Part shown: positions 3,191-19,389 of the stretch, piece after piece
Layout: each line of letters opens with the position of its first letter
Numbering within the stretch: position 1 is the stretch's first letter
Assembly: GCA_018398765.1 (NCBI GenBank)
Contig: JAHBMJ010002289.1
Span: forward strand, 1-20,495
Reading direction: 5' to 3'
DNA length: 20,495 nucleotides
Source: Chromera velia
Lineage: Eukaryota > Sar > Chromeraceae
The notes under the pieces: model-generated
Database searches by the model: none
Told to the model about the DNA's origin: nothing
Seen by the model: the letters and a program-made list of their open reading frames with translations, nothing else
Made by a program: the position numbers and the translations under genes

Positions 3191-4270
3191 CCTGACGGTG
3201 GAGTCATCACTTGCGGAGAAGAGGAAGGAGGAAACACCGTTCCTCCCCATGTGGGGCCACACCACTGCATTCACAGTCGCCGCATGACCGCTGAGAACCG
3301 CCAAGAGGGATCCCACGACCTTGTGCCAAATGAACACGCGGCAGTCTTCGCTTCCGGAGATCACAAACGCTTCTCCGGGCCCACCGAAGCTAGCTCGGAC
3401 CACAAATCTGCAAAGAACGAAGAACAAACGGACTATCTAAAACCGTCCGTCTTCAAACGGAGAAAAAATTCAGGCGGTTTTGAACCCTCCCTCATCCTCT
3501 CGATCCCGTTCTGTCCGTGGAAAAAAAATTGAATAGTAGGTATGCCTTTCTCTTCTTGCCTCAAAGGCTCTGTCTTTATCTCTCTCTGCCTCGGTCTGCA
3601 TGCCCCCCCCTGTTTGCCTGACCTGCCCTGCGCGTGGCCTTTGTATCGTGCGACAACCCTTCGTCCGTTGCAGTCCCACAGTCGAATAATAGGCGTCTGG
3701 AAAGAGACGGAAACGAGGAGCGTGTCGCTTAGACGAGAGGCGCACAGCGACGTCACTGCCTCAGCCTCAGGAAGACAAAAGAGTTCTCTCCGGCTGTCAA
3801 TGTGGATGATCTTGATAGTCCTGCATCAATCAAGCAATCAACTTCTCTCAGTGTCATACGTGGACAAATACTCTGTCTGACATGTATATTAGTGCATGCT
3901 ATAGAAAACGAAAACGGCCCGTCGGTCCTGCCCTTTGACCAAAGCGACCAATGCATCGTTCTCCATAAAGTTGCAACATTGACTGACTGAGCAGCCCTCT
4001 CTCTCTGTCACCAAACTGTCCGATGCCACCAAAAAAAAAAAAAGATGTCACCAACCTGTCCGATGCCACCACGCACATGCGCGCGCCTTCATAGGTCAAC
4101 GCAACGTCCTGCACTCGGGCTGGAAAGATCCACTTGTGCTCGGGCTCGGGGGCCGTGTAGTCCCAGAGGAAAATGACCTGAGGCATGCATGCATGACAGC
4201 AGAGAGAGAGGGTCGAAGGTTGAGTGAGTGAGTGAGTGAGTGGTTGAGTAGGTGAGTGAGTGAGTAAGTG

Positions 4271-4338
<68 letters not shown>

Positions 4339-6123
4339 TGAGTGAGTGATGAGGTGTGAAGCAATCACATTTCAGTTTTTTTCTGTCTTCTTCTGGCATC
4401 CAAAAGCCCTAGCTTTCTTTTCCATTGAATCGCTGAAGGACGAGCTTTCTTTTCCATTGAATCGCTGAAGGACGCGGCAGGTTGGATGAAGGGAAAAAGA
4501 ACATGTATCAGTTCAAGTCTCCTCTGACTGTCAGCACATCGGAAAGGGCAAAGTCGAACACTTCGGACAAACAACAGAAAAGAAAAAAAAAAACAGGGAT
4601 GAAGGGAGGAGGGAGGGAAGAAATGGCACACAAGGGGAAAGGAAAAAGGGAGGAGCCCTATGTCGACGCACAGGTCCCAAAGAAAGAAAAGCATTGCGGA
4701 AAACTGTGGTTAAAGGGGAAAAAAAAGTGAGAGCACTGACTGACGTCACAGAGATGTGGGGAAACAGAAGCAGAAAATGGAAGGGAGACGCCACATGGAT
4801 GGAAAGAACGACAAGGAAACAGAAGCAGAAAATGGAAGGGAGACGCCAGATGGATGGAAAGAACGACAAGGAAACAGAAGCAGAAAATAGAAGGGAGACG
4901 CCACATGGATGGAAAGAACGACAAGGAAACAGAAGCAGAAAATAGAAGGGAGACGCCACATGCATGGAAAGAACGACAAGGAAACAGAAGCAGAAAATGG
5001 AAGCGAGACGCCAGATGGATGGAAAGAACGACAAGGAAACAGAAGCAGAAAATGGAAGGGAGACGCCACATGGATGGAAAGAACGACAAGGAAACAGAAG
5101 CAGAAAATAGAAGGGAGACGCCACATGGATGGAAAGAACGACGAGGGAACGAAGCAAATTGCATGGTGCAGCTACGGACTATCGAGAAAAAACTAGAACA
5201 GAATGCTAGCAACGTACAACAGAATTAGAAAAAAAAGTCTCTGTACCAGTCAACCACTTGATCACCTCCAGTCCTCGCTGCTCCCCTTGTTACTCACCTT
5301 ATCAAAAGAGGAGCTGATCAACCGCTTGCCGTCTCGCAGCCAGGCTACAGAGGAAACGAAATCGCTGTGTTTGCAGAAGGTTCGCAACAGCCTTCCTTTT
5401 CCCCGTTCTCGGTCTCTGTCTCTTTCTCTGCTACCGTCTTCCCTTCTCTCCTCTTGATCTTGAAGAATCTGCGCCCCTCCTCTCTTCTGCTGCTGTTGAG
5501 AAAGTGGAGTTGCCGGTTTAGTGCCTTGTTGGCCGTTCGCCTGCTGCTGTGGCTGTGAAGGGACAGGGGTGACCGCCCACACACGCACAGTCTTATCATT
5601 TGAGGCGGAGGCAATTTTCGAGTCGTCGTGAGAAAACGACAGGGAGGATGCCGGCTCCGTGTGGGCATGGAATCTGTGCACGATGGGAAAATTGGGTGCG
5701 AGATTCTCCCACACGATCACCGTCTTGTCCTTTGAGCAAGAGGCACCGAAACGCCCCGACGGAGACACTGCAGGCAGGCAGGCAGGTAGAAGGGTTCCAC
5801 GGAAGACAAAAGCAGTACCAGCAAGCGCAAGGAAAAATACGGAAATGCGTACGAATTTTTACGTGCGAGGAACGCTAAAAGAGCACACCTCGGCAGCGAA
5901 CGGAAGAAAAACGAATACGGATGACGTCACCTTCCCCCATGTGCGCGCCTCTTGTGCGACGCTTCCCTGTCTCAAAAGACCCCCTCAGCAAGGCATTTCG
6001 GACACGAGGCAGCAAAGGGAGCCTCGGCGTGAAAGGTCCGAAGGGAGTCAGACTCTCATTCAAGCGAATTCTTTTCACAAAAGGAACGAAAGAAGGAACG
6101 AAAGAAGGAAGGAAGGAAGGAAG

Positions 6124-6168
<45 letters not shown>

Positions 6169-7329
6169 AAAAGAGGAAGGAAGCAAGGAAGGAAGAAAAG
6201 AGAAGCGGAAAGCAGGGAGAACAGAACAGGACAGGACATAAAACAAGGACAGAGAAGAAGGAAACAATACACGATCAAACAGACCTGTGACAAACCACAC
6301 CTCGTCCTTCTGTTCTTCAATCGTGCATGCATTTACTTTCATGAAAATCTGTATGAAAGTATTCTGTATGAAAGTAAATGCAGACAGACCTGTGACAAAC
6401 CACACCTCGTCCTTCTGTTCTTCAATCGTAGCAATACATCGCTCTGGCATGCTTGTCTGCGTACACAGGTGGTCTTCCAGCAGTCCGTAGTAAGCGGTTG
6501 CGTTCTCGGGGTCGTGAAGGAGACAGACGGACTCCTGGAACTTCCACGCTTGGTGAAGAAGACGGGCAAGACGTTTGGGAGGAACGGAGATATGTGGGGG
6601 CAGTAGGGCGACTATTTGTTGCCACAGAGCGTTTCTGCTCTCGCTTCTGCTCCATTGGATGCCTTCTGCTGCTTCTGAGGTTTTTTCACACAGAAACAGG
6701 CCACAGCATCTGTGAAGACGCTCGCTCGAGTGGGTGTCAAAAACAGCGGGACACAACTCTTCACGGAGACAGGTGAGAGCCTCGTCCAGGAGATCTGCAC
6801 ACATCAACTCAACAAATTTTTGCTCTAGGACCAGGAAGGAACAAGCCTGCCATACCTCCAGGCAAAGCTCTAACCCATCGAGAGCTTCCCTCACAACCGC
6901 CCAGTCACCCTCCAGAACCCCCCTATGAAGTCTCTTAACCACAGGAGACTCCAAGACAATCCCAGACTCTCCTTCTAACACGGAGACGGAATCGTGCAAC
7001 CCCAACCCTTGGAGAGTTTGCAAAAGAAGGAGCACCAACTCATCACGAGGCAGACCCTCCCAGAGCACACCACCCAACTGTGTCTCCCCATTTGCCCCCA
7101 CACCATTTAGCTCGGTCAACCGTCCGGATCCATTCGTGGTGATCTCATGACCGTTCATCGAGTGCACTCGAGGTTTTTTCTGTTCTCTATGTTGTGTTTC
7201 GTCTCCTGCAGGCCTGCTGCTGCTGCTACTACTGCTGCTGCTGCTCGAAGACGAAGATGAAGATGAAGAGACGTCTCGAGAGTCCGAGTGAGACTGGTCT
7301 TCAGAGAGCTTTCTCTTATTGCATTTCAT
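3191..7329 (-). CDS. WDR26: WDR26/Gid7-like LisH-CTLH-WD40 protein (3' exon unresolved)
   Basis: Exons, in transcript order, are 7329-6390, 5767-5298, 4177-4056, 3820-3623 and 3407-3191. They join in frame (phases 1, 0, 2, 2) with GT-AG borders, giving 649 codons before an unplaced last exon. Residues 1-93 are disordered with an 18-Ser tract (21-38). LisH is at about 94-124 and CTLH at about 129-190. WD40 repeats begin near 305 (DEVWFVT, then SKDKTVIVW, NDKTVRVW, IRLWDCNG, SGSEDCRVFIWH, SASDDSTVR). Order and wording match human WDR26 closely, including FGG...SGSED and the RTIKIIHID stretch. A Q-rich and RDRDRERG-type linker interrupts the propeller in exon 2. WDR26 and yeast Gid7 are subunits of the GID/CTLH E3 ubiquitin ligase in cytosol and nucleus. 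ATG 7329 is the first after an in-frame stop. The family's final W after TVR is not found. The donor of exon 1 is duplicated (6285 or 6390). Confidence 0.88.
4006..4071. repeat. 26-bp duplication spanning the exon 3 donor of the WDR26-like gene
   Basis: Copies at 4046-4071 and 4006-4031 are separated by 14 bp, mostly A. They differ at one base. In the sense of the gene, the first copy reads GACAG|GTTGG (the donor used) and the second reads GACAGTTTGG, so the duplicate lacks the GT. Confidence 0.9.
4222..4349. repeat. TGAG tetramers flanking a (GT)n microsatellite in intron 2
   Basis: TGAG repeats at about 4222-4270 are followed by a (GT)n run with one ACGT interruption to about 4336, then more TGAG to 4349. 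All lie in intron 2 of the WDR26-like gene, close to the acceptor of exon 3. Confidence 0.9.
4411..4474. repeat. Perfect 32-bp tandem duplication
   Basis: The unit at 4411-4442 is repeated without change at 4443-4474 inside intron 2 of the WDR26-like gene. There is no spacer and no element between the copies. Confidence 0.95.
4760..5144. repeat. Minisatellite, 7 x 55 bp, in intron 2 of the WDR26-like gene
   Basis: Units start at 4760, 4815, 4870, 4925, 4980, 5035 and 5090, each beginning GGAAACAGAAGCAG. They differ at a few sites (AAATGG or AAATAG; CCACATGG, CCAGATGG or CCACATGC). 55 is not a multiple of 3, and all three frames stay largely open on both strands, which produces long spurious open frames here. 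Confidence 0.97.
6085..6165. repeat. (AAGG)n(CA)n microsatellite in intron 1
   Basis: GAAAGAAGGAAC-type purine repeats pass into AAGG tetramers and then a (CA)n run ending at CGCACA. It lies in intron 1 of the WDR26-like gene. Confidence 0.93.
6279..6429. repeat. 46-bp direct duplication spanning the exon 1 donor, flanking a small element
   Basis: Copies at 6279-6324 and 6384-6429 are identical over 46 bp. Each holds the last codons of exon 1 (IEEQKDEVWFVT) and the donor CACAG|GTCTGT, read on the minus strand. The 105-bp offset is a multiple of 3. Confidence 0.95.
6325..6383. mobile_element. Small inverted-repeat element (59 bp), copy 1
   Basis: The 59 bp between the two 46-bp duplications have 15-bp perfect inverted ends: TGCATTTACTTTCAT at 6328-6342 and its complement at 6368-6382. 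The right end, ATTCTGTATGAAAGTAA, is shared with the insert at 10035-10099. It has no coding capacity. Calling it a mobile element is inference from recurrence at two unrelated loci with flanking duplications; a templated repair insert is the alternative. Confidence 0.55.
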
Positions 7330-8580
7330 GAAAAGAACCTGAGGCGCCCTGCGAGAGGAGGCAATAGACGATCAAGGTTACATCTGATGTGCAACGGTAC
7401 CGAAAAAGAAAAGGACCTTTCGAGGGTGACTGCTACTGGCACACTGCTGGCTGCAAGAGCAAAACAATGATTGAAAAGCTCTGTCGAGAACGCTTCTGTG
7501 ACTTAAGTGAGATGTCAGACCTTGCAAGTATGACCTCGTCAGACTGATTTCGTAGATCAAATTAATTAAGCTGTGCATGGTCACAGTGTGGTGGGCCGGG
7601 GGGCCGGGGGGCCGGGGGGTCGGGGGGGTCAGGGTGCCGGGGGCCCGCCGGAGGGCCGGCCCGGCGAAGAGGGCTTTTTTTTCTTAAGTAAAAGTTTATA
7701 AGACCGTTCCCTTTTGTTTCTTCTAAGTTTTCTCAAGACCAAGCAAGTTCATGTTTCTTTCTTGAATGAAAAGACATATGTTTCTTGAACAAAAAGATAG
7801 AGACATGACAGTGATGGCAAGGGTGATGGTAGTCTTTAGAAAGAGATCTGATTAATTAATCAATCGATAAAATTTTGATCGAGAGAAAGAATAAATTTTC
7901 AGAGCATCGATCGATATAGCGAAATCGTCTTACTGCCGCTAAAAGTGGCATATGCAAGTCATTTCTATGCTGTGACTTGATATAGAAAAAACCTCTAGAA
8001 TTAACCATCATGAATTTGAATGTATTTAAATGTTTTATCTTTCATATTTTTAAAACTTTGAAATATTCACAGAGAATTGTGCAGTAGATTCCCGCTTCTA
8101 AACCAACTCTTTTTTTTGTCTTTCAGATAAAATCTGAATTTATTTTGTTGATATCTGAAACTTACGTAAATTTTCACGTTACGAGTCACGTATCATTTTC
8201 GAATCTCACCCATGTATAAGCAGGTTGGTTGAATGACCCCGAAGGATCTCTTTACGTATGCACAAACCAGAACAAACGCCTGCCAACATTAAAGTTAGAC
8301 TCATCAACTGACTGCTGCACCCCGGTTCTAGCTCGGTTACTTACCAAGCGAAACATCCATCAAGCGATCGGCCCGGCAAAACGCATGCGGCGGCTTCCTT
8401 GTTGATATTTTCTTGCAGAAAACCCTTCTTGAACGCCTTTCTCCTTTCGGGAAACAAGGTCCCTGAATCACTTTTTTTTATTTTGTAAAAGAACACGCTC
8501 CCGATCGGACTCACTGTTTAAGCCGAAAGCTTTTAAATCAAACCGCCTTCAGCCGGAGTCTCAGAACGGAGGGAGCTTGT
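7330..8580. other. Intergenic region upstream of the WDR26-like gene
   Basis: This separates the 5' end of the WDR26-like gene from the 3' end of galactokinase, both on the minus strand. It holds the G-rich block at 7590-7673 and then about 850 bp of AT-rich DNA (7680-8560) with no convincing open frame on either strand. The promoter of the WDR26-like gene should lie here, but I see no recognisable core motif. Confidence 0.6.
7590..7673 (+). repeat. G-rich GGCCGGGG tandem block
   Basis: Repeated GGGGGGCC units give at least five runs of three or more G in about 45 bp, followed by GC-rich sequence ending at a T-run. It sits about 260-340 bp upstream of the start codon of the WDR26-like gene, with the G-rich strand on the non-template side of a minus-strand promoter reversed. 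It could form G-quadruplexes. Confidence 0.75.
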
Positions 8581-8581
8581 C

Positions 8582-8642
<61 letters not shown>

Positions 8643-8679
8643 TGTGTGTGTGCGTGTGTGTGTGCGTGCGTGCGTGCGT
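8582..8679. repeat. Compound microsatellite (CT)n(GT)n
   Basis: A TC run is followed by a long TG run with TATG and TGCG interruptions. It lies about 175 bp beyond the galactokinase stop in the sense of that gene, so it may be in its 3' flank or 3' UTR. Confidence 0.95.
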
Positions 8680-8851
8680 CCTTGTACTGTGTGGTGCTTT
8701 CCCTGTTCCCTCTTCCTACGTCTTTCCCCCCCTTTCCTTCCTGTCTTCCACGTGTAAACTCCAACGCCGCCCTAGCTGTGCCCTTTCGGGAAAAAAATCC
8801 CCCCCCCTCGACACAAACAAAAAGGAATATATGCTGGACAGACATGCAGTT

Positions 8852-10184
8852 CTATTCATAACGATGGGCTCCATCTGACGGCATCGCAACGAAAGCTCCC
8901 GGCTGCGGCACGGGTGTCAGGTGTCTCTCGTAGGCGTCTCTGTTTCCCTCCACCCACTGTCGGTAGGCTGAGAGCACGGATGACCTGACGCTCTCAGCCT
9001 TCCCCGCATCCACTAGCATCACCACACACCCTCCAAACCCCCCACCCGTTATACGTGCCCCGTAAACTCCACCCTGAATACCCAACCCCTTTGCATGGTC
9101 AACCAGCCAGTCGATCTCTGGGGTGGATACTGCGTACAAGTCGCGCAAGGACGCGTGGGAAGAGTACATTTCTTCCCCTGCAGCCTCAACATCCCCCTGT
9201 TTCATTAGCTCAGCAAAACGGAGGCAACGAGCATTCTCGGAAGTCACGTGCTCTGCCCGCATGCGAACATCGCCGGTCAACACCCCCTCTGTCGATGCCT
9301 CAGCGACCTCTTCCGGTGTTGCATCGCGCAACTGAGTAAGTGATCCACCCGCAGACCCTCTTCTCTTGGAGAGAGCTGCAACCGCCTGTTTGCACTGCTC
9401 TGCTCTCAACGCATATGCCCCGTCTACCAGCCGATGCCTCACCCCCGAGTCTACCACCAGCACACGCGTCTTCTCAGTTGAGAGAGGAACATGTGAAGGC
9501 TCCTCGGAGCGACAGTCCAAAAGCATCGCATGACCAGCCAACCCCCCTGAGGAGATGGCCTGATCCATCAAACCACAGGGCATACGAGCCCACTCATGCT
9601 CAGCCCTCTGGCAGATTTTGGCTCGCTGGATTGGGTCTACTTCCATACCACATAGCGCCTCGAGCGCTGCCGAGACCGACACCTCAACTGAAGCACTCGA
9701 GGAGAGACCTGCTCCCACAGGCACGTCGGTGACAATTGCGAGGTCAAACCCAGGAGGTTCAGTACCCACTTTGTCAGGGAAAGCCTCTCTAGTGCATTGA
9801 ATTGCACCCAAAACATAATGCCACCACTGGGTGTGCTCTCCATCCGAATCCTCCCTCTTTGTGGGCAGTTCCCCCTTCTCAAACGTTTTGACCTCGTCGG
9901 GAGCGAATTTTGTGGCCATTCTGTGCACCCCGTCGGACCTCCTTCTGATCGCCACCACACACTTCTTGTCAAGTGCGATGGGCATCACAAAACCTCCCTG
10001 ATAGTCTGCAGACAGACAGATACACAGACATGCGTGCATTTACTTTCATACATTCACTTTCACACATACTCCTTGAAAAAGAATTCTGTATGAAAGTAAG
10101 GGCATCACAAAACCTCCCTGGTAGTCTGCAGACAGATAGATACACAGACATGCGCAGGCACAGGGATGAAAAGATGACCCAAAA

Positions 10185-10273
<89 letters not shown>

Positions 10274-10897
10274 GCGTGCACACATACACGCACCAACACA
10301 TACCGGTGTCAGGAATGATATGAGACGTTTGGCGTTTGAAAAATACCTGTGTGGATGGGTCAAAGCATCCCAGTTCTGATTAAAGGAAAGACAAGAACGG
10401 ACGACTGAGAGCAGAAGCCTCTAGCGAGTTATTTCTCTACTCAAGACGACAAAGTTCATTTGCTTCACCAAGACTGCTTCCATACCGGAGCCTGCTATGC
10501 TGCCAGACTGTCAGAGCTTTGCGCATTGGTTGTTTGTGGAAAGCTTGAGGCTATCAGTGTGTCACGCAGACGCTGACTCCCACAGGCACGGGCACACGCG
10601 CATGCATGCACACCCACACCCACAACCCCCCCACTCACACACACACTCACACACACATCGAAAACATCCACCCCGCTCATTCACCCCGAAAGCGCGCACA
10701 TAAACAAATACCCTTACCCCGCCCCTTCCACGCGGCATACACGACCCTCTTCTCCCTGCAAGCTACTTGCCTGTGTGCTCTCCAATAAGGTTCACGCGCC
10801 CCGGAGCACCCACGACATAGTCGGGCTCCTCTTTGAACGTCTCACGGAAAAAATCCTTCACCTCCTCGCAGATGCTGTCAGAGGGAACCACCTTCAT
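8852..10897 (-). CDS. GALK1: Galactokinase (GHMP kinase), two exons
   Basis: It phosphorylates galactose to galactose-1-phosphate with ATP, the first committed step of the Leloir pathway, in the cytosol. Exons 10897-10771 and 10005-8852 join in phase 1 to give 426 residues (typical family length is about 380-430). The galactokinase signature GRVNLIGEHTDYQGG (33-47) is split across the intron after T42. GHMP motif 2, PVGAGLSSSAS (138-148), and motif 3, GARITGGGFGG (358-368), are intact. MPCGLMD (184-190) supplies the expected catalytic Asp190, and Arg34 is present. ATG 10897 is the first ATG after an in-frame TGA at 11003-11005; the 34 codons before it have no ATG. The intron (10006-10770) starts with GC rather than GT, and its acceptor region is duplicated, with the copy at 10121-10126 leading to a premature stop. 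The neighbour RPIA is divergent. Confidence 0.95.
9980..10154. repeat. 55-bp direct duplication spanning the galactokinase exon 2 acceptor
   Basis: Copies at 9980-10034 and 10100-10154 match at 53 of 55 positions by hand. Each holds the acceptor (TGTCTGCAG) and the first 25 or so coding bases of exon 2 (DYQGGFVMP), read on the minus strand. The copy at 9980 is the coding one. Confidence 0.95.
10035..10099. mobile_element. Small inverted-repeat element (65 bp), copy 2
   Basis: The 65 bp between the two 55-bp duplications begin TGCATTTACTTTCATAC and end AATTCTGTATGAAAGTAA, giving at least 12 bp of perfect inverted ends (TTACTTTCATAC). Both ends match the insert at 6325-6383. The interior differs. 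No coding capacity. Element status is inferred from the two-locus recurrence. Confidence 0.55.
10188..10270. repeat. Self-complementary compound microsatellite (CT)n(CA)n(GA)n
   Basis: CT (10188-10218), CA (to 10242) and GA (to 10270) runs follow without a break. The CT and GA arms are complementary, so transcripts or single strands could fold into a hairpin with a CA loop. It lies in the galactokinase intron, about 65 bp upstream of the spare acceptor in transcript sense. Confidence 0.95.
10765..10770 (-). promoter_or_regulatory. Non-canonical GC splice donor of galactokinase intron 1
   Basis: On the minus strand the exon ends CACACAG and the intron starts GCAAGT. Only this junction restores the conserved GEHTDY peptide in frame (CAC ACA G + AC TAT). 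GC-AG introns usually keep an otherwise perfect donor, and AG|GCAAGT fits that rule. No GT nearby gives the right frame. Confidence 0.8.
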
Positions 10898-11669: not shown

Positions 11670-13936
11670 ATGCGTTCTTTGGCCTGCGTGCTGCTCGTCT
11701 CTCTGCAGTCGTGCAATCTCTCTTTTGGCTTTAGTGCGCAGTCTGCGCTTCTCAGTCGAGCTCGCCGTGGCTTTTCCTCCCTCAGAATGTCCGTCTCCCA
11801 GGATGAGATGAAGAAGAATGTAGGGTACAAGGCTGTTGATGACTATGTGAAGTCTGGAATGCTCGTGGGACTGGGGACCGGCTCGACTGTCTATTTTGCA
11901 GTCGAAAGACTCGGAGAGAAGCTGAAGAGTGGGGAGCTGAAGGACATTGTTGGGATTCCCACCTCAGAGAGGACACGAGAGCAGGCAGAGAGTCTAGGGA
12001 TCCCTCTGATCACTTTGGATCAGAGGTCTGACATCGATGTGGCGATTGACGGCGCAGATGAAGTCGACCCGAAGTTGAGCTTGGTGAAGGGAAGAGGGGG
12101 CGCACTCTTGAGAGAAAAGCAAATTGAAGAGTGTGCAAAGGAATTCATTGTCATCGTCGACCAAAGCAAAATTCAAGACGGACTCGGAACCGACGGTCGG
12201 TCGTAACGTTCTCTTTCCCCTTCCAAAATTGGTGCCGTCCCCTTCCACTTCGCTTTGTGTGTTCGCATCTGTCTCTTGCCTCCCATCTCAGCCTCTCCCT
12301 GTTCCTTATCACCCCCTCTGCCTTCTCAGGTCCCTCCATCCGTCCTTGGATCTTTACTTCCTCCTCACTTCTTCCTTCCTTCCTTCCTTCATTCCTCACC
12401 CGCTTGCTCGTTTCCTTGCTCAAGGGGACAAGGGCTCTGCGTCCATTCTTTCAATCTTTCGTTGGCGGTGGGTGGCTTTTATCTTCTGAATGCTGGGCAT
12501 GTTTCGATAATTGCCTGTTTCTCTCTTTCCGTGTCTCTGTTCTCTTCCATTCCAGCAGTCTCTCCCATTTCTCAAACGATCCGACGGGCATTCTGATGGG
12601 TCTTTGTCTCTTTCGATGACCGAGAGATTTGGCTATTCATATCCTTCTTTTGTCATGATTCTGTGTTTTCTTCGGTCTGTGCTTGTTTCTCCGAACCCCT
12701 TCAGACGTGTCCCGTGATTGGGTTCTTCTCTTCCCCCGCTGTCTCTCTGTCTACCTCTCTCTCTCTGTCTCTCCCTTCCTTCTTCCTTCAGTCATTCCTT
12801 AGTCCATCTGTCCCTGCCTCCGCCTTTTCCCTTCCCCTCCAGGTGCTATGCCTGTTGAGGTCAACAAGTTCTGCTGCGACTACTTGAGAGCGAAGGTTGC
12901 CGATCTCCCCGCGTTGAAGGGCGTGAAGGGACTGAAAGCTGAACTCCGAAAGAACAAAGACGGAAGCCTGTACGAGACAGACAACCAGGTAGGCGTGGTG
13001 GTAGGTGGGAGGGGGACTTGATTCAAATGGACTGAAGAGAGGGGAGATTGATCGGTCGAATCGATCAAAGCAAAGAAAAAAAGACGCTGAAGAAGAAAGC
13101 AGAGAAAAAATATATATATACAGGTTGAAGATACCGCGTGGTTTTTTGGTGGTGTTCTGTTGATCTCCCTCCATTCTTTTGTTTTTCTTCTTTCTTTGTT
13201 TTCTCTCCCGTCCTCTGTGGTGGTGTTCTCTTGATCTCCCTCCATGCTTTTGTTTTTCTTCTTTCTTTGTTTTCTGTCCCGTCCTCTGTGGTGGTGTTCT
13301 CTTGATCTCCCTCCATTCTTTTGTTTTTCTTCTTTCTTTGTTTTCTCTCCCGTCCTCTGTGGTGGTGTTCTCTTGATCTCCCTCCATTCTTTTGTTTTTC
13401 TTCTTTCTTTGTTTTCTGTCCCGTCCTCCGCCTCTTCCAACCGATTCCCCCTCCCGATCGAGTCATGCAGAGTCCAATCGTCTTCAAGCACACCATTCAA
13501 TCATGATGTTCACACCACAGCTATTCTACACAAGATCCATTCTTCCGTAGTATCCTTCCTTCTCAGTCAATCACGTAACGTGCAGGCGCGCCCCTCTCCT
13601 TTAAATTTCTGACTCCATTTCCTCGTCCTCCCTCATGCAACTCTGAGCACACTCGCTCACGTTCCACAAGTGCAAAGACCCAGAGTTGTCTCTCGGCTGT
13701 TCAACAGTATGCTTATTCCGTTTTTGCTCTTTCTGTATGTGTGCCTGCCTGCCCTGTGTGTGCAGAACTACATTGTGGACCTATACATGGACTCTCCGAT
13801 TCCGGACATCAAGGAGTGCGGACGGCAACTGAAATCCCTGACTGGAGTCATCGAGCACGGTCTGTTCATCGACATGGCCTCGGCATGTCTCGTTGGACAG
13901 CCCGATGGTTCCGTTGTGCTCAAGACGGCGCTGTGA
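11670..13936 (+). CDS. RPIA: Ribose-5-phosphate isomerase A, three exons, probably plastid-targeted
   Basis: It interconverts ribose-5-phosphate and ribulose-5-phosphate in the pentose phosphate pathway and the Calvin cycle. Exons 11670-12195, 12843-12988 and 13766-13936 join (phases 1 and 0) to give 280 residues. The RpiA core starts near residue 46: GLGTGSTVYF (67-76), DIDVAIDGADEVD (121-133) and KGRGGALLREK (140-150) carry the expected substrate-binding and catalytic Asp, Lys and Glu residues; exon 2 opens with GAMPVEVNKFC. Residues 1-40 are extra compared with cytosolic enzymes: a hydrophobic N-terminus (ACVLLVSLQS), then a Ser/Arg-rich stretch starting FSAQS, which resembles the signal plus transit peptide of complex plastids (inference). 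An in-frame TGA lies 12 bases before ATG 11670. Introns are pyrimidine-rich, and intron 2 holds a 71-bp minisatellite. Confidence 0.95.
13147..13430. repeat. Minisatellite, 4 x 71 bp, in RPIA intron 2
   Basis: Units start at 13147, 13218, 13289 and 13360 with TGGTGGTGTTCT. Units 1 and 3 have TTTTCTCTCCC where units 2 and 4 have TTTTCTGTCCC, an alternating pattern. Long Lys/Glu/Arg-rich open frames on the minus strand here are a by-product of the repeat. Confidence 0.97.
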
Positions 13937-14894: not shown

Positions 14895-15357
14895 TGATGA
14901 ATCCCTAGCTCACCTAAGCTCAGAGATCCACGCTTGTACATATACTCGTAAATATACTCGTAAGTATGGTTTTCCGGGAATGGTCTCGAGTTCACAGATC
15001 TCTCTAGTCCGGACCTCGATACACTTTCTCTATTTGTATTTCTAATTCTCGGTCGATCGGTTGATCGATCGCTCACGTGCACATCTGCTATGTCTGTATC
15101 TATCGTATTTCATGTAATACATTTGTCTGTATATTCCGTACATGACATGCTCTTTGCTTTTCTGTCCACTCGCACTCAGTCTGTTTTAGTACTGCATTCT
15201 CTGTATGCATATTCACATGTATATTATAATTTCCCGCATGCAACGCTTCATGCATGTGTTGCTGACACGTACAATTCGCTCGACGGCGTGCGCGGATCGA
15301 TTTAGACTGGTATGATGCTGCACGCGCCTCTTCTCTCTGACCTTTGATACTTCATCA
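14895..15357 (-). repeat. 3' LTR of the copia element (463 bp)
   Basis: It aligns end to end with the other LTR. The only length difference is a 12-bp extra TATACTCGTAAA-type duplication near 14940-14965. By hand I count about 31 substitutions, nearly all transitions. Confidence 0.93.
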
Positions 15358-15363
15358 ATCGCA

Positions 15364-15379
15364 TCCTTTTTCTTTTTTC
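15364..15379 (-). promoter_or_regulatory. Polypurine tract of the copia element
   Basis: On the minus strand, a 16-base all-purine run (GAAAAAAGAAAAAGGA) ends 6 bp before the 3' LTR, the usual place for the plus-strand primer of reverse transcription. Confidence 0.75.
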
Positions 15380-15427
15380 GCGGAGCGAACCCACTCTTAC
15401 ATATTCATTCATCATTCCCATTCACGA

Positions 15428-15739
15428 TCATTCATACACATGTACCCTCTTGTCTCTTCCGTTCTCTTTTGCCATCTTGCTTTGATTTGAGGTGCTTTCC
15501 TGACTACATTTGATCTCCGTTTGAGTTGCTTCGCTTCTTTCGAACGTCTGGAGCGTTGACGCAGACAAACACATGGACGTGGAATGATCTGCCCCCCAAC
15601 AGACCAAGCATGTTGCCTTTGCTCCGTTCTTAGGTAGCTTCTCTCCCTTTGATCTCCTGTTATCAGTTCTGCGTCTCTCATCTCTGCAAAATGCTTTCTC
15701 CTTTATCTTCCCTTTTTCACCCACACCCCTTTTCTCCAT
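15428..15739 (-). pseudogene. Lys/Arg-rich frame with a CCHC zinc knuckle, downstream of RNase H
   Basis: On the minus strand, CLVCWGADHSTSMC (about 15625-15584) fits the C-x2-C-x4-H-x4-C zinc knuckle of retroviral and copia nucleocapsids, preceded by a basic stretch (KGEKLPKNGAK). The frame differs from pol, which stops at 15703, so a frameshift would be needed to join them. A nucleocapsid knuckle normally sits in gag, 5' of pol; here it lies between RNase H and the 3' LTR. Start at 15739 is only the first ATG in the open stretch. Confidence 0.5.
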
Positions 15740-17500
15740 GCATTCTTTCCTTTTTCACCAAATCGATCAGTCATCAAGCTTTCTCCCTCTTCCTTGACTT
15801 TGATCCCTTTTGTAATCGCTTTGTAGTCAACCCGTTGTCTGTTCCTCAGTCCTTCTCTCCTCGCGCCTCTGCTTTGAATCTCAGGCATCTTCAAATCCAC
15901 CTGCACACATGGCCATTCATCATCTTCTTCTTCTTCCTTTTCTTTTTCTTCTTTTGACAGACCTGTGGGTGTGTAGACTATCTGTGCCTGTCTGTCTTTC
16001 TCGAGAAGTGATGCAATCAGATCCATATCCATTGGCTTTGTGAAACTGTCTGCGTAGTTCTGATGGCCATACACATGCTGTACTCTGATCTTCCCTTCTT
16101 CCATTCCGTCCATTGCAGCTATTACTGGAACCACACACACTTTCCCCCCCATCTCTCTTATTTGTTCAATCAGGTCCTTTTCCTAGGGCTTCGGGTTTCT
16201 GGATTTAAGCATCTTGCACACCCCATCTGAATCCGTTCAAATTGTGCAATGCGAGTCCTTCCAGATCTCCCGAATGAATCTCATCATCACCAATGCGTAG
16301 TCAAGTGCATCTTCCAGTGCACAGAGTTCTACCCGATTGATGCTCATCGCACATCTCTTCTGTTTTCAACTCTTCCAAGCGATCGGTCTTCCATTCACGA
16401 TAAGTACCCAGCCTGTCTGTGGGTATAGATTCAATTCACTTCCCCCTGCTGCATCGCAATACAGAACCACTTCCATTCTCTCATGTAACTTGGGAGGGTC
16501 CAGCATGATCCCTCGATCCGAAGTCGCCTGTCCGTATTTGATGGCTCTGTTCAGAAGTCTCCATACTCTGACGGTTGGCTTTTGATTAAATTGACTCAGC
16601 CATGCGGATGCAAACTTGAGATCCGGTCTGGTGCTGTGCGCTGCATAGGACAACTCCCCTAACAACTGTCTGTACCGTCTGTATCCCTCTGCATCTAGCA
16701 CCTCCGACCTATCATCTTCTCTCGTCACCCCTGTTGGAAGAGGTTGAGATCCCTGCTTACTCTGTTCTCCTTGAATACTCTCAACGTACGCTTTCTGAGA
16801 GTACCAGATTCTTCCGTCTGAAAGGACCTCATAATCACTTCCAACATACTGCCCCAATATCTCTGGCTCCTTGCAATAGACCTCTTCTGCAATTTCTTTC
16901 ACCATCTCCTGTATGTCCCCTTCCAACGAAACGATAATCAAATCATCAACGTACTGACTCAGCAACCCAACAGCCTTTCCTCCCTTCTTTTTCCAAAACA
17001 CCCCGCTCAACGGACTGAGCTCCCAACCTAGTTTCCTCAAAACCTCCCACAAATGGTCTTCAAATGCTCTCCCTGCATCCTTCAAACCATACAGGGCCTT
17101 CTTCAATCTCCAGAGCAAACTTGCTTTTCTGTCAGGATGACTGGGAGGCGGTCTGACGTAGACTGGGACTCGGGACTTCAGCTTCGCCTAGAAATAGGCG
17201 TTCTAACAGTCTATGGAGGCGATTGAGTTCTTTCCGTAGTTTGGGGACGCTAATGCTGTAAGTAAAACGAAACGAACAAAATTAGGTGGGCAACCACACG
17301 TGGTGGTTTCCATACCCTGTCTTGGATCCTGGTCTCCTCTTGCTACTGCTCTTGCCTTAAACTCTCTCTCTCCTCCTACTTTCATCTTCAAAGTATCCAC
17401 CACCAGCATGTCTAGGACGGTTGCTCCTGTGGGGACGTTCTCCTTCCTGACCGTGTCGTAGGTGTCGTACTTCATCAACTTGGCTAGTTCTGCACTTCTT
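15703..17500 (-). pseudogene. Copia pol remnant: reverse transcriptase and RNase H
   Basis: One frame carries the RVT_2 order: KYDTYDTV...EFKARAVARGDQ (17478 down), SIDC-stop-NAYF-stop-AKL at the first catalytic Asp, RPPPSHPDR, LWRLKKALYGLKDAGRAF, SQYVDDLIIV (catalytic YVDD near 16950), ARPDLKFA-type TRPDLKFASAWL, then RNase H (LYCDAAGGSE, VELCALEDALDYAL, TDSDGV) and the family's closing VYGHQNYADSFTKPM. In-frame stops are at 17203-17205, 17188-17190, 16366-16368, 16237-16239 and 16183-16185. A 1-base frameshift lies near 17490-17500. An acidic and basic tail follows to the stop at 15703. The enzyme cannot be made intact. Confidence 0.9.
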
Positions 17501-17575
17501 TCTCATCTCTGGTGTCAAGCTCCCGTACTTTACTTTCTAATATGTAGTCTCTGTCAGTAGGACTCTTCCCACCTC

Positions 17576-18217
17576 TTAGTCTGAACAGAAGAAGGAAGAC
17601 GTACTGATAAGAAAATCAAGAAACGAAGTGACGCTGGAACCTGACATTCTGTCTTTAGGCTCTGTAGACAAAGCAAACTCCTTCTCTTTGATGTACTCTC
17701 TGAGAAGAGTACTGATCGTGCTCTCACCTAGCCTCCCATTCTTCTTAACCTTCACGTCTTCAATCATGATGTCTTCTCTCTCCACCTCAAACAGATCTGG
17801 TTTCACTGCCCCGTACTTTTTCGTATTATTTGTAAACATTACCGCTCTCTCTCTTTTTCTCCTTACTGCAGGACAACAAAGCCGATCTCTCAACGTTCCT
17901 TTCCCATACGACCCGTAATGCTACACAGTCACTCGCCTTCTCTTCTCTTCCTTCACTTCCCCTAAGAACAACTGCTTCGTCTTTTCATCCTTCCATATAA
18001 TAAATTTCTTTCCGTCTGATCTCTTTCTTTTCTCCTTTTCTTCGCGTGCTCCTTTCTTCCAATTTTGTCTGCTCTGATCACGTGCATAGCTCTTCATACT
18101 TTGACGGACACAGGCAGTTGTACGCAGATCAGCACTGACACAGAAATGGAAGAACCATCTGCAGAGGAAGTCATGTGGCTGTTTGAATTTGATCAGAAGA
18201 GTGATACAGAAAAGCAT
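17576..18217 (-). other. Unrecognised open stretches between gag position and RT
   Basis: Two minus-strand open stretches in one frame (18217-17921 and 17893-17576) separated by stops encode charged sequence (REEKEKRKRSDGKK; EVEREDIMIEDVKVKK). I recognise no integrase, protease or other domain. This is where a copia element would carry them, so it may be what remains after deletion. Confidence 0.4.
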
Positions 18218-18373
18218 GAAAAGTTTAAGAAATATTGGAAGGATTTTCGCATCCCTGTCTCGAAGAGAAAGTGAGTAGACTGTCAGAAGAGAAAAAGGTT
18301 TGGCCCTGTTTTTCTTCCTTAAGCAGTTTTACCATTCTTTTCACAGAGACCGAGGAGGACAGTGAGGAAGTAA
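18146..18373 (+). CDS. Possible two-exon mini-gene antisense to the retrotransposon
   Basis: On the strand opposite pol, exon 18146-18270 (MEEPSAEEVMWLFEF ... DFRIPVSKRK) ends at a GTGAGT donor. A pyrimidine-rich acceptor (TTCTTTTCACAG) follows 76 bp later. Using the AG at 18347-18348 gives a 49-residue product ending KRKPRRTVRK, a basic tail. Coding appearance is on this strand only: the minus strand is T-rich and non-coding in look. No family is recognised; an acidic frame (ETEEDSEEVSER) in the second exon is out of phase with the first. It could be a fragment of host DNA or chance. Confidence 0.22.
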
Positions 18374-18796
18374 GTGAAAGACACGAAGGTAGAGAGAGTC
18401 AAACAGAAAAAACAAATTGCTCTTGTTCAGAAGGTTAGTGTCCAGACCCAGGATGTCCACCGCCATCTTGAGGAACAGCATCAGCGACTTCAAGGTCAAT
18501 GAATCCTTTTCGTCCACCTTTCTGCCTTGAAGTGTCTCGTTATAGATGTGCTCAAGGGTTTTCTTCTTGTCCTCGTAGAGGGACTTGAAGATGAAGCTCT
18601 TCACCATCCGGTTAGGGTGCTCAAAGGAGAGGTTGGCGACCTGCTGGTCAGTTGGGTCGTTGATCTGGGACTCAGGATCGATAGCTTGCAGTTCCACCTT
18701 CTCGGTAAGGTGGATTTTGAGGCCGGGGAACATGGCCGTGACCTGATTCCTGAAGTTTGCATTAACGTCTACCTGCTGAGGAGAGAAGAGAACCAT
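18341..18796 (-). CDS. Open frame in gag position, 151 codons, unrecognised
   Basis: It starts at ATG 18796, about 143 bp inside the 5' LTR, where gag should begin. The first 115 or so residues look truly coding (FRNQVTAMFPGLKIHLTEKV; PNRMVKSFIFKSLYEDKKK; LKSLMLFLKMAVDILGL), with many codons ending in C or G, unlike the A/T-ending codons of the pol remnant. After about 18430 it runs into AT-rich sequence (NLFFLFDSLYL) and stops, so its 3' part is probably lost. It could be a truncated gag or a captured piece of a host gene. No zinc knuckle is present here. Confidence 0.45.
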   Translation of the reverse strand: MVLFSPQQVDVNANFRNQVTAMFPGLKIHLTEKVELQAIDPESQINDPTDQQVANLSFEHPNRMVKSFIFKSLYEDKKKTLEHIYNETLQGRKVDEKDSLTLKSLMLFLKMAVDILGLDTNLLNKSNLFFLFDSLYLRVFHLLPHCPPRSL

Positions 18797-18919
18797 TGTT
18801 GAGTTTAGATAGTCTGAGAAATCGAAGGACGGAAACGTTCAAGCTTGCACACACATCACACACCTCAACGCAGATGCAGTTCATTTTCAAAGAAGAAGAC
18901 AACGAATGGAACAAAGACC

Positions 18920-18936
18920 CCACTTCTTTATCACCA
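18920..18936 (-). promoter_or_regulatory. Putative primer-binding site
   Basis: On the minus strand the 5' LTR ends ...TTCATCA, then GA, then TGGTGATAAAGAAGTGG. TGG two bases after the LTR fits pairing with a tRNA CCA end. The rest resembles the plant copia site TGGTATCAGAGC only weakly, so the primer tRNA is not assigned. Confidence 0.4.
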
Positions 18937-18938
18937 TC

Positions 18939-19389
18939 TGATGAATCCCTAGCTCACCTAAGCTCAGAGATCCACGCTTGTACATATACTTGTAAGTATG
19001 GTCTTTTGGGAATGGTCTCGAGTTCACAGATCTCTCTAGTCCAAACCTCGATACACTTTCTCTATCTATATTTCTAATTCTCGGTCGATCGGTCGATCGA
19101 TCGCTCACGTGCACGTCTGCTATGTCTGTATCTGTCATATTTCATATAATACATTTGTTTGTATATCCCATACATGACATGCTCTTTGCTTTTCTGTCCA
19201 CTCGCACTCAGTCTCTTTCAGTACTACATTCTCTGTATGCATGTTCACGTGTATATTGCAATTTCCTGCATGCAACGCTTCATGCATATGTTGCTGACAC
19301 ATACAATTCGCTCGACAGCGTGTGCGGATCGATTTAGACTGGTATGATGCTGCGCGCGCCTCTTCTCTCTGACCCTTGATACTTTATCA
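18939..19389 (-). repeat. 5' LTR of the copia element (451 bp)
   Basis: It is a direct repeat of 14895-15357, begins TGATGAATCCC on the + strand and ends TTTATCA. It should hold the promoter and start of the element's transcript in minus-strand sense. No TATA box is assigned. Confidence 0.93.

Follow-up and report, generated by a model that had tools for sequence, protein, structure and literature searches.

Tiny hairpin inserts between long direct repeats recur across the Chromera velia genome and may record break repair on one short template

How do two unrelated genes come to carry, each at a splice junction, a tiny insert with the same inverted ends between two long copies of the host sequence? 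The question is raised by a 20,495-bp stretch of Chromera velia DNA (GenBank assembly GCA_018398765.1, contig JAHBMJ010002289.1), called the window here, which is contig C2276 of the assembly that was searched (177.8 Mb in 4040 contigs). A sequence-only reading of the window had offered two answers, a new class of minute element or repair that draws on a common template. Tiny hairpin inserts between direct repeats (DRs, the copies of a host segment on either side of an insert) are real and occur genome-wide in C. velia, and of the two answers it is repair with a common template that the findings below support.

Two inserts in the window

The two inserts with shared ends and long flanking DRs that had been read from the window are confirmed. 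Insert 1 (bp 6328–6382) consists of two facing arms (TGCATTTACTTTCAT ... ATGAAAGTAAATGCA), and the palindromic character claimed for the shared ends is plain here, where they form a perfect 15-bp inverted pair, TGCATTTACTTTCAT at 6328–6342 and ATGAAAGTAAATGCA at 6368–6382. The copies of its 49-bp DR (6276–6324 and 6381–6429) are identical at 48 of 49 positions and have a perfect core of 46 bp. Insert 2 (bp 10035–10099), also made of two facing arms, has ends in common with insert 1 and lies between copies of a 55-bp DR (9980–10034 and 10100–10154; 53/55 identical). Read on the strand of the gene, insert 1 has a repeated TACTTTCATACAGA in its first arm, as if synthesis had slipped back, and one arm of insert 2 is TTACTTTCATACAGAATTCTTTTTCAAGGAG, almost the entire template discussed below; the internal repeats of the end motif seen in the earlier reading are likewise supported. 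As single-stranded DNA both inserts fold much better than shuffled sequences, whichever strand is taken (z −5.1 to −6.2), and no comparable local repeats arose when the window was regenerated 20 times by a first-order Markov model.

Insert 1 sits within a WDR26/GID7-like gene (bp 3191–7329, minus strand; Pfam LisH_WDR26 and WD40), at the donor that follows base 6390; the exons of this gene were placed at 7329–6390, 5767–5298, 4177–4056, 3820–3623, and 3407–3191 in a model that stops short of the 3′ end. The exon-end copy of its DR comprises 40 nt of exon (6390–6429) and 9 nt of intron (6381–6389), with the donor GT at 6389–6388 on the minus strand. The intron-side copy contains a second donor (last exon-like base 6285), whose use would add 35 in-frame residues with no stop; by eye, these extra residues are absent at that point from a related MMETSP protein, P0241 (45% identical). 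Insert 2 lies at the acceptor before base 10005 in a GC-AG intron of a galactokinase gene (bp 8852–10897, minus strand, identified by Pfam). Exon 1 of this gene (10897–10771) ends at the GC donor ACAG/GCAAGT (10770–10771), and exon 2 runs from 10005 to the stop at 8852. The exon copy of the DR holds 26 nt of exon (9980–10005) and 29 nt of intron (10006–10034). Use of this inner acceptor gives a 426-amino acid model, and use of the acceptor in the outer copy (first exon base 10125) leads to a stop after 68 amino acids; the database protein for the gene has only 224 amino acids, about half of the 426-amino acid model. The introns of both genes run on far past their inserts.

Occurrence in the genome

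The 14-base end motif TTTACTTTCATACA has 876 exact matches in the assembly (470 + 406) and the 13-base inner motif TCATACAGAATTC has 1167 (549 + 618), these being numbers of motif matches and not of insertions; the reversed patterns of the two motifs have none. The end-motif set comprised 82 partly overlapping stretches (end motifs, arrays, and nearby copies), and 27 further stretches were taken for an inner 19-mer. Clustering gave 108 clusters, which resolve into 80 sites with a DR, one without, and 27 that are internal to arrays or share a 13-mer with a site already counted. A genome search for further copies flanked by DRs, as the sequence-only reading had proposed, thus finds a DR at 80 of 81 independent end-motif sites, the window included; in the sole exception, L069, the sequence itself shows a repeat that is short and imperfect. 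All 27 inner-motif loci, for which there was no separate control, also have a DR, which is short at two of them (17 bp at L107 and 17/19 at L115). At the 66 of 80 end-motif sites where the repeat holds no arm sequence the DR is 14–78 bp long (median 42), which agrees with the earlier view that the duplications are unlike those of known DNA transposons; at the other 14 sites, many of them arrays, the aligned repeat includes arm sequence and lengths were left out. Median identity between copies is 96.6%. The median DR score is 36 at the sites and 8.5 at places drawn at random from these loci; 12% of the random places also score 18 or more, which is put down to the tandem repeats of the C. velia genome.

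At some sites the insert alternates with the host segment in arrays with periods of ∼64–117 bp (L066, L072, L079–L081, L108, and contigs C1875, C3817, and C3866; among the matches listed, contig C135 has nine spaced 64 bp apart), and such alternation looks like the birth of minisatellites. Interrupted DRs with other or diverged fillers are also present (L009:1703, L020:815, L022:472, L047:2541, L063:3269, and L065:1920). By eye, the fillers at L009, L020, L022, and L065 are unrelated to the arms, as is that of a third interrupted DR in the window (bp 4006–4071). The copies of the latter (4006–4031 and 4046–4071; 25/26 identical) straddle another donor of the WDR26-like gene, at 4056, and duplicate 16 nt of exon and 10 nt of intron around a 14-bp A/T-rich filler with no hairpin insert. 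The interrupted DR at L047 has inverted ends of its own, ATTCATTTT...AAAATGAATGCA, perhaps an older variant of the template.

Anatomy of the arms

Arms and interiors were compared in 94 inserts, from 74 of the 80 end-motif sites (inserts of 20–140 bp) and 20 of the 27 inner-motif loci. Read inward from the DR, each arm is a variably truncated copy of the ∼41-base sequence TGCATGCRTTTACTTTCATACAGAATTCTTTTTCAGGGAGCGC, with a common inner end; the outer part of this sequence differs between sites and its inner part is almost constant. The 116 arms at the 74 end-motif sites stop anywhere along it, and five get to GGGAG or further; in the inner-motif set, chosen for that motif, 19 of 29 arms get to GGGAGC. 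Past GAGCGC there is no common continuation except for recurrent joins to the other arm. Slipped repeats lie inside arms of insert 1, L052, and L053, and no telomeric repeat array was seen by eye in the inserts inspected.

Arms start at differing points within TGCATGCR, and there they share more bases with the target than expected; this microhomology averages 1.18 nt against 0.31–0.39 nt in two nulls, and it reaches at least 2 nt at 31% of arm starts against 5–8%. The outer part occurs in several variants (TTTACTTTC, TTTTCTTTC, TTTGCTTTC, and TTCATTTTC, recognized by eye). Over the outer six bases the two arms of one insert differ by 0.75 mismatches and arms of different inserts by 1.31, and none of 5000 permutations did as well. 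A 10-base test counts 62 inserts as two-armed, 29 as one-armed (a class that also takes in inserts with a very short second arm), and three as neither; among the two-armed inserts the variants pair as CA-CA (18), CG-CG (9), and CG-CA (3). Clear one-armed inserts are those of L055, L060, and L109. No pair among the 94 inserts is alike from end to end (normalized score 0.8, comparing only lengths within 8 bp). This lack of alike pairs, together with the one-armed inserts, speaks for fresh synthesis at each site and leaves a minute element that is mobile as a whole the less supported of the two early readings; the one-armed inserts have a DR too, and therefore two ends are not required for insertion.

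Relation to splice junctions

The sequence-only reading had tied the duplications to exon-intron boundaries and had noted that the insert ends resemble an acceptor in one direction and a donor in the other. The tie to boundaries stands for both window copies and, as an excess, for the genome, and it fails as a general description of the sites. A combined score (splice motif plus coding sequence on one side, with a codon model from 19 kinase stretches and the two window genes) is high 2.0–2.7 times more often in DRs than in equal-length controls (76 of the 80 sites, window sites excluded, and 1580 controls), a ratio that is too high if the controls contain intergenic DNA, as they may; P ranges from 0.003 to 4e-6 in eight tests. 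With 120-bp windows on the flanks, 2 of 80 sites have coding sequence on both sides (8.9% in controls), 37 on one side (33.4%), and 41 on neither (57.7%). With 150-bp windows 31 of 80 have it on one side (33.6% in controls), which is little excess. The splice motif alone was rated as showing little or no excess, with donor scores of at least 5 at 17 of 80 sites (6.4% in controls) and acceptor scores of at least 2.4 at 39 of 80 (43.4%). Strict targeting of splice sites was rejected on the 41 sites without a coding flank and on these weak or null motif-only results; the tie to splice junctions is a bias, not a rule.

Protein evidence places an exon at nine sites, which were chosen for coding sequence at the repeat rather than at random, and by eye a junction lies inside the DR at seven of them: a donor in the window WDR26-like gene and at L011 (FAD_binding_2), and an acceptor in the window galactokinase gene and at L041 (superoxide dismutase), L061 (fumarase), L063 (DnaJ), and L054 (mitochondrial carrier). 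The candidate reading frames beside repeats numbered 63, of which 50 were compared with Pfam, giving nine matches, three of them below the cut-off (L003, L021, and L055; L003 and L055 were omitted from the nine sites). At the two remaining sites the insert lies within an exon, at L021 in a gene with the below-cut-off WD40 match and at L010 near the end of an arabinofuranosidase gene. The latter insert (L010:1436–1626) is in the last coding part, and the reading frame enters an arm and then stops, so the last arabinofuranosidase residues would be replaced. Loss of inserts inside exons must contribute to the enrichment at junctions. It seems likely that the break sites themselves are also biased toward splice junctions, because removal of a class that makes up 9% cannot double the remainder.

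A possible mechanism

The inserts are probably the result of repair in which a single short template serves to extend each 3′ end of a staggered break before the two are joined. Nicks in opposite strands tens of bases apart would give the staggered break; each 3′ end would anneal through a few bases to the template's 3′ part and be extended, the polymerase halting or slipping at any position as far as the 5′ end of the template; the extended ends, now bearing the same sequence, would be joined facing one another; and gap filling would put the overhang sequence on both sides. DRs would then be due to the overhangs, the inverted ends to the use of one template at both ends, and one-armed inserts to extension of only one end, and the slipped repeats within arms fit a polymerase that loses and then regains its place. 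Where the DR spans a splice junction an intact junction therefore stays, and the insert is extra intron. In two related processes, paired nicks with 43- and 50-nt overhangs gave tandem duplications in mouse cells (PMC8355091), and vertebrate genomes acquired copies of telomerase RNA at breaks in the course of evolution (PMC2246262, PMC8537989). Our guess is that a reverse transcriptase copies an RNA template, with a DNA template about equally likely; an RNA template would end ...GTAAAYGCA and have its 5′ end near GCGCTCCCTG. More tentatively, a dedicated template-carrying repair enzyme other than telomerase might cap the two 3′ ends of staggered breaks in C. velia genes, ahead of rejoining, with one and the same ∼40-base sequence; this would be a new repair class, which would plant hairpins, lengthen introns at their borders, and start minisatellites.

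Several observations weigh against extension on a shared template. Matches to the inner 19-mer adjoin DRs in 37 of 37 cases, so that no DR-free master copy was found among them, and Rfam gave no match at the gathering threshold in seven loci. An identical 38-bp core is present on two contigs, C462 and C1602, and head-to-tail addition of whole units, as by telomerase, occurs at one place only. The variants shared between the arms of one insert are also expected of an ordinary inverted-repeat element, and it is from a single assembly of one strain that we infer insertion in one step. A viral or prokaryotic source was also rejected, the exact 20-mer being absent from the IMG/VR and GTDB contigs, where records near the window's genome may have been excluded.

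The RNA-copying step is one that this repair explanation would have in common with a SINE-like (short interspersed element-like) retroelement, in which a short RNA is reverse transcribed from a primer at the target with early stops, and twin priming gives the two-armed forms. Such an element would agree with the single fixed end, with truncations and target duplications that vary, and with the one-armed copies, but in 62 of the 94 inserts both sides show the same end of the template, a result that ordinary priming at the target does not give; in addition, neither longer copies nor a tail were seen in the inserts inspected, and the inner 19-mer matches include no source gene, making this origin rather unlikely. 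We consider it unlikely that the inserts are miniature inverted-repeat transposable elements (MITEs), or introners of that kind, with long variable target duplications and interiors altered by decay and internal deletion. Terminal inverted repeats, flanking duplications, hundreds of matches, and variants shared by the arms of one insert are all features of such elements, and introners with inverted ends are known (PMC9860276). Set against these are the 29 of 94 inserts without inverted repeats at both ends, one-armed and yet flanked by DRs, duplications of 14–78 bp at 66 sites in place of a fixed short length, and interiors that are not shared, apart from the one short core on two contigs. A longer parent element was sought at C1427 and C1386, where opposed ends lie 0.7 and 2.9 kb from each other, and each of these pairs proved to be two small inserts with DRs of their own.

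Break repair by a polymerase-theta-type DNA polymerase, with an abundant palindromic DNA rather than an RNA as the source of the copied filler, would account for the microhomology at arm starts, for slipped and patchwork interiors, and for the other fillers between similar DRs. The arms, however, start in one narrow stretch and share one inner limit, which is more defined than a random template would be expected to give, and no abundant DNA source free of DRs was seen; this origin is quite improbable. That the inserts are artefacts of short-read assembly is scarcely credible, even though the published assembly was made from short reads and the genome is rich in low-complexity DNA (PMC4501334). 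The sites number more than 100, their flanks are unrelated and their interiors differ, their repeats carry point differences (the median identity given above), and the galactokinase frame is full length only by way of the inner copy.

Other features of the window

A copia-type long terminal repeat (LTR) retrotransposon occupies bp 14895–19276, with LTRs at about 14895–15244 and 18939–19276 that are 91–97% identical and an RVT_2 match between them. Tandem arrays are present in an intron of the WDR26-like gene (55-bp units, bp 4705–5205) and in the region of a ribose-5-phosphate isomerase gene (71-bp units, bp 13147–13499). A ribose-5-phosphate isomerase record from C. velia strain CCMP2878 is 100% identical to the gene in the window over 78% of the query.

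Comparison with known systems

If repair on a shared template is the true origin, the C. velia inserts are a natural record, within one genome, of one short template copied onto both sides of broken DNA. They would imitate transposons, with inverted ends and flanking repeats, without being mobile, so that repeat finders would misclassify them, and they would offer a route by which introns lengthen at their borders and minisatellites begin. The cause of breaks near exon-intron borders, and the polymerase and template that mend them, become testable. Such inserts are not described in the available portions of the open-licence literature on Chromera introners, miniature inverted repeats, transposable elements, introns, and genome.

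The telomerase RNA-derived inserts of vertebrates (TERC-ITS; PMC2246262, PMC8537989) are, like those of C. velia, short and of varying length, with microhomology at the break ends, as was found here above both nulls, and the two would also have in common an origin from RNA copied at breaks if the C. velia template is an RNA. The vertebrate inserts differ in that they include telomeric repeats; 41 vertebrate loci were analysed, with at most 16 in one species, and there are far more sites in C. velia. Among telomeric inserts, duplications accompany only 6 of 130 in rodents and 4 of 25 in primates, whereas in C. velia long duplications are present at nearly all sites and most inserts are two-armed.

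Introners (PMC9860276), including the introner elements of Amoebophrya, which is an alveolate too (PMC7789003), share with the C. velia inserts their inverted ends, flanking repeats, and position in or at introns; in these, however, the repeats are 3–9 and 3–5 bp long, the element is itself the intron, and the copies of a family are alike. Direct repeats at intron borders (PMC11782384) also lie at exon-intron borders and have been read as traces of break repair, but they are 4–30 bp long and lie at or near both borders of the intron, and the portion available names no shared insert. The tandem duplications that follow paired nicks or are patch-mediated (PMC8355091, PMC7407515) copy a stretch of tens of bases lying between the nicks and at times carry extra sequence, and the C. 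velia sites show the same combination of a duplication of variable length interrupted by filler, as expected of a staggered break; no recurrent templated insert on both sides is described in the available parts of those two accounts. Each single step of the proposed repair thus resembles a known process, and what would be new is a dedicated repair enzyme that carries its own template.

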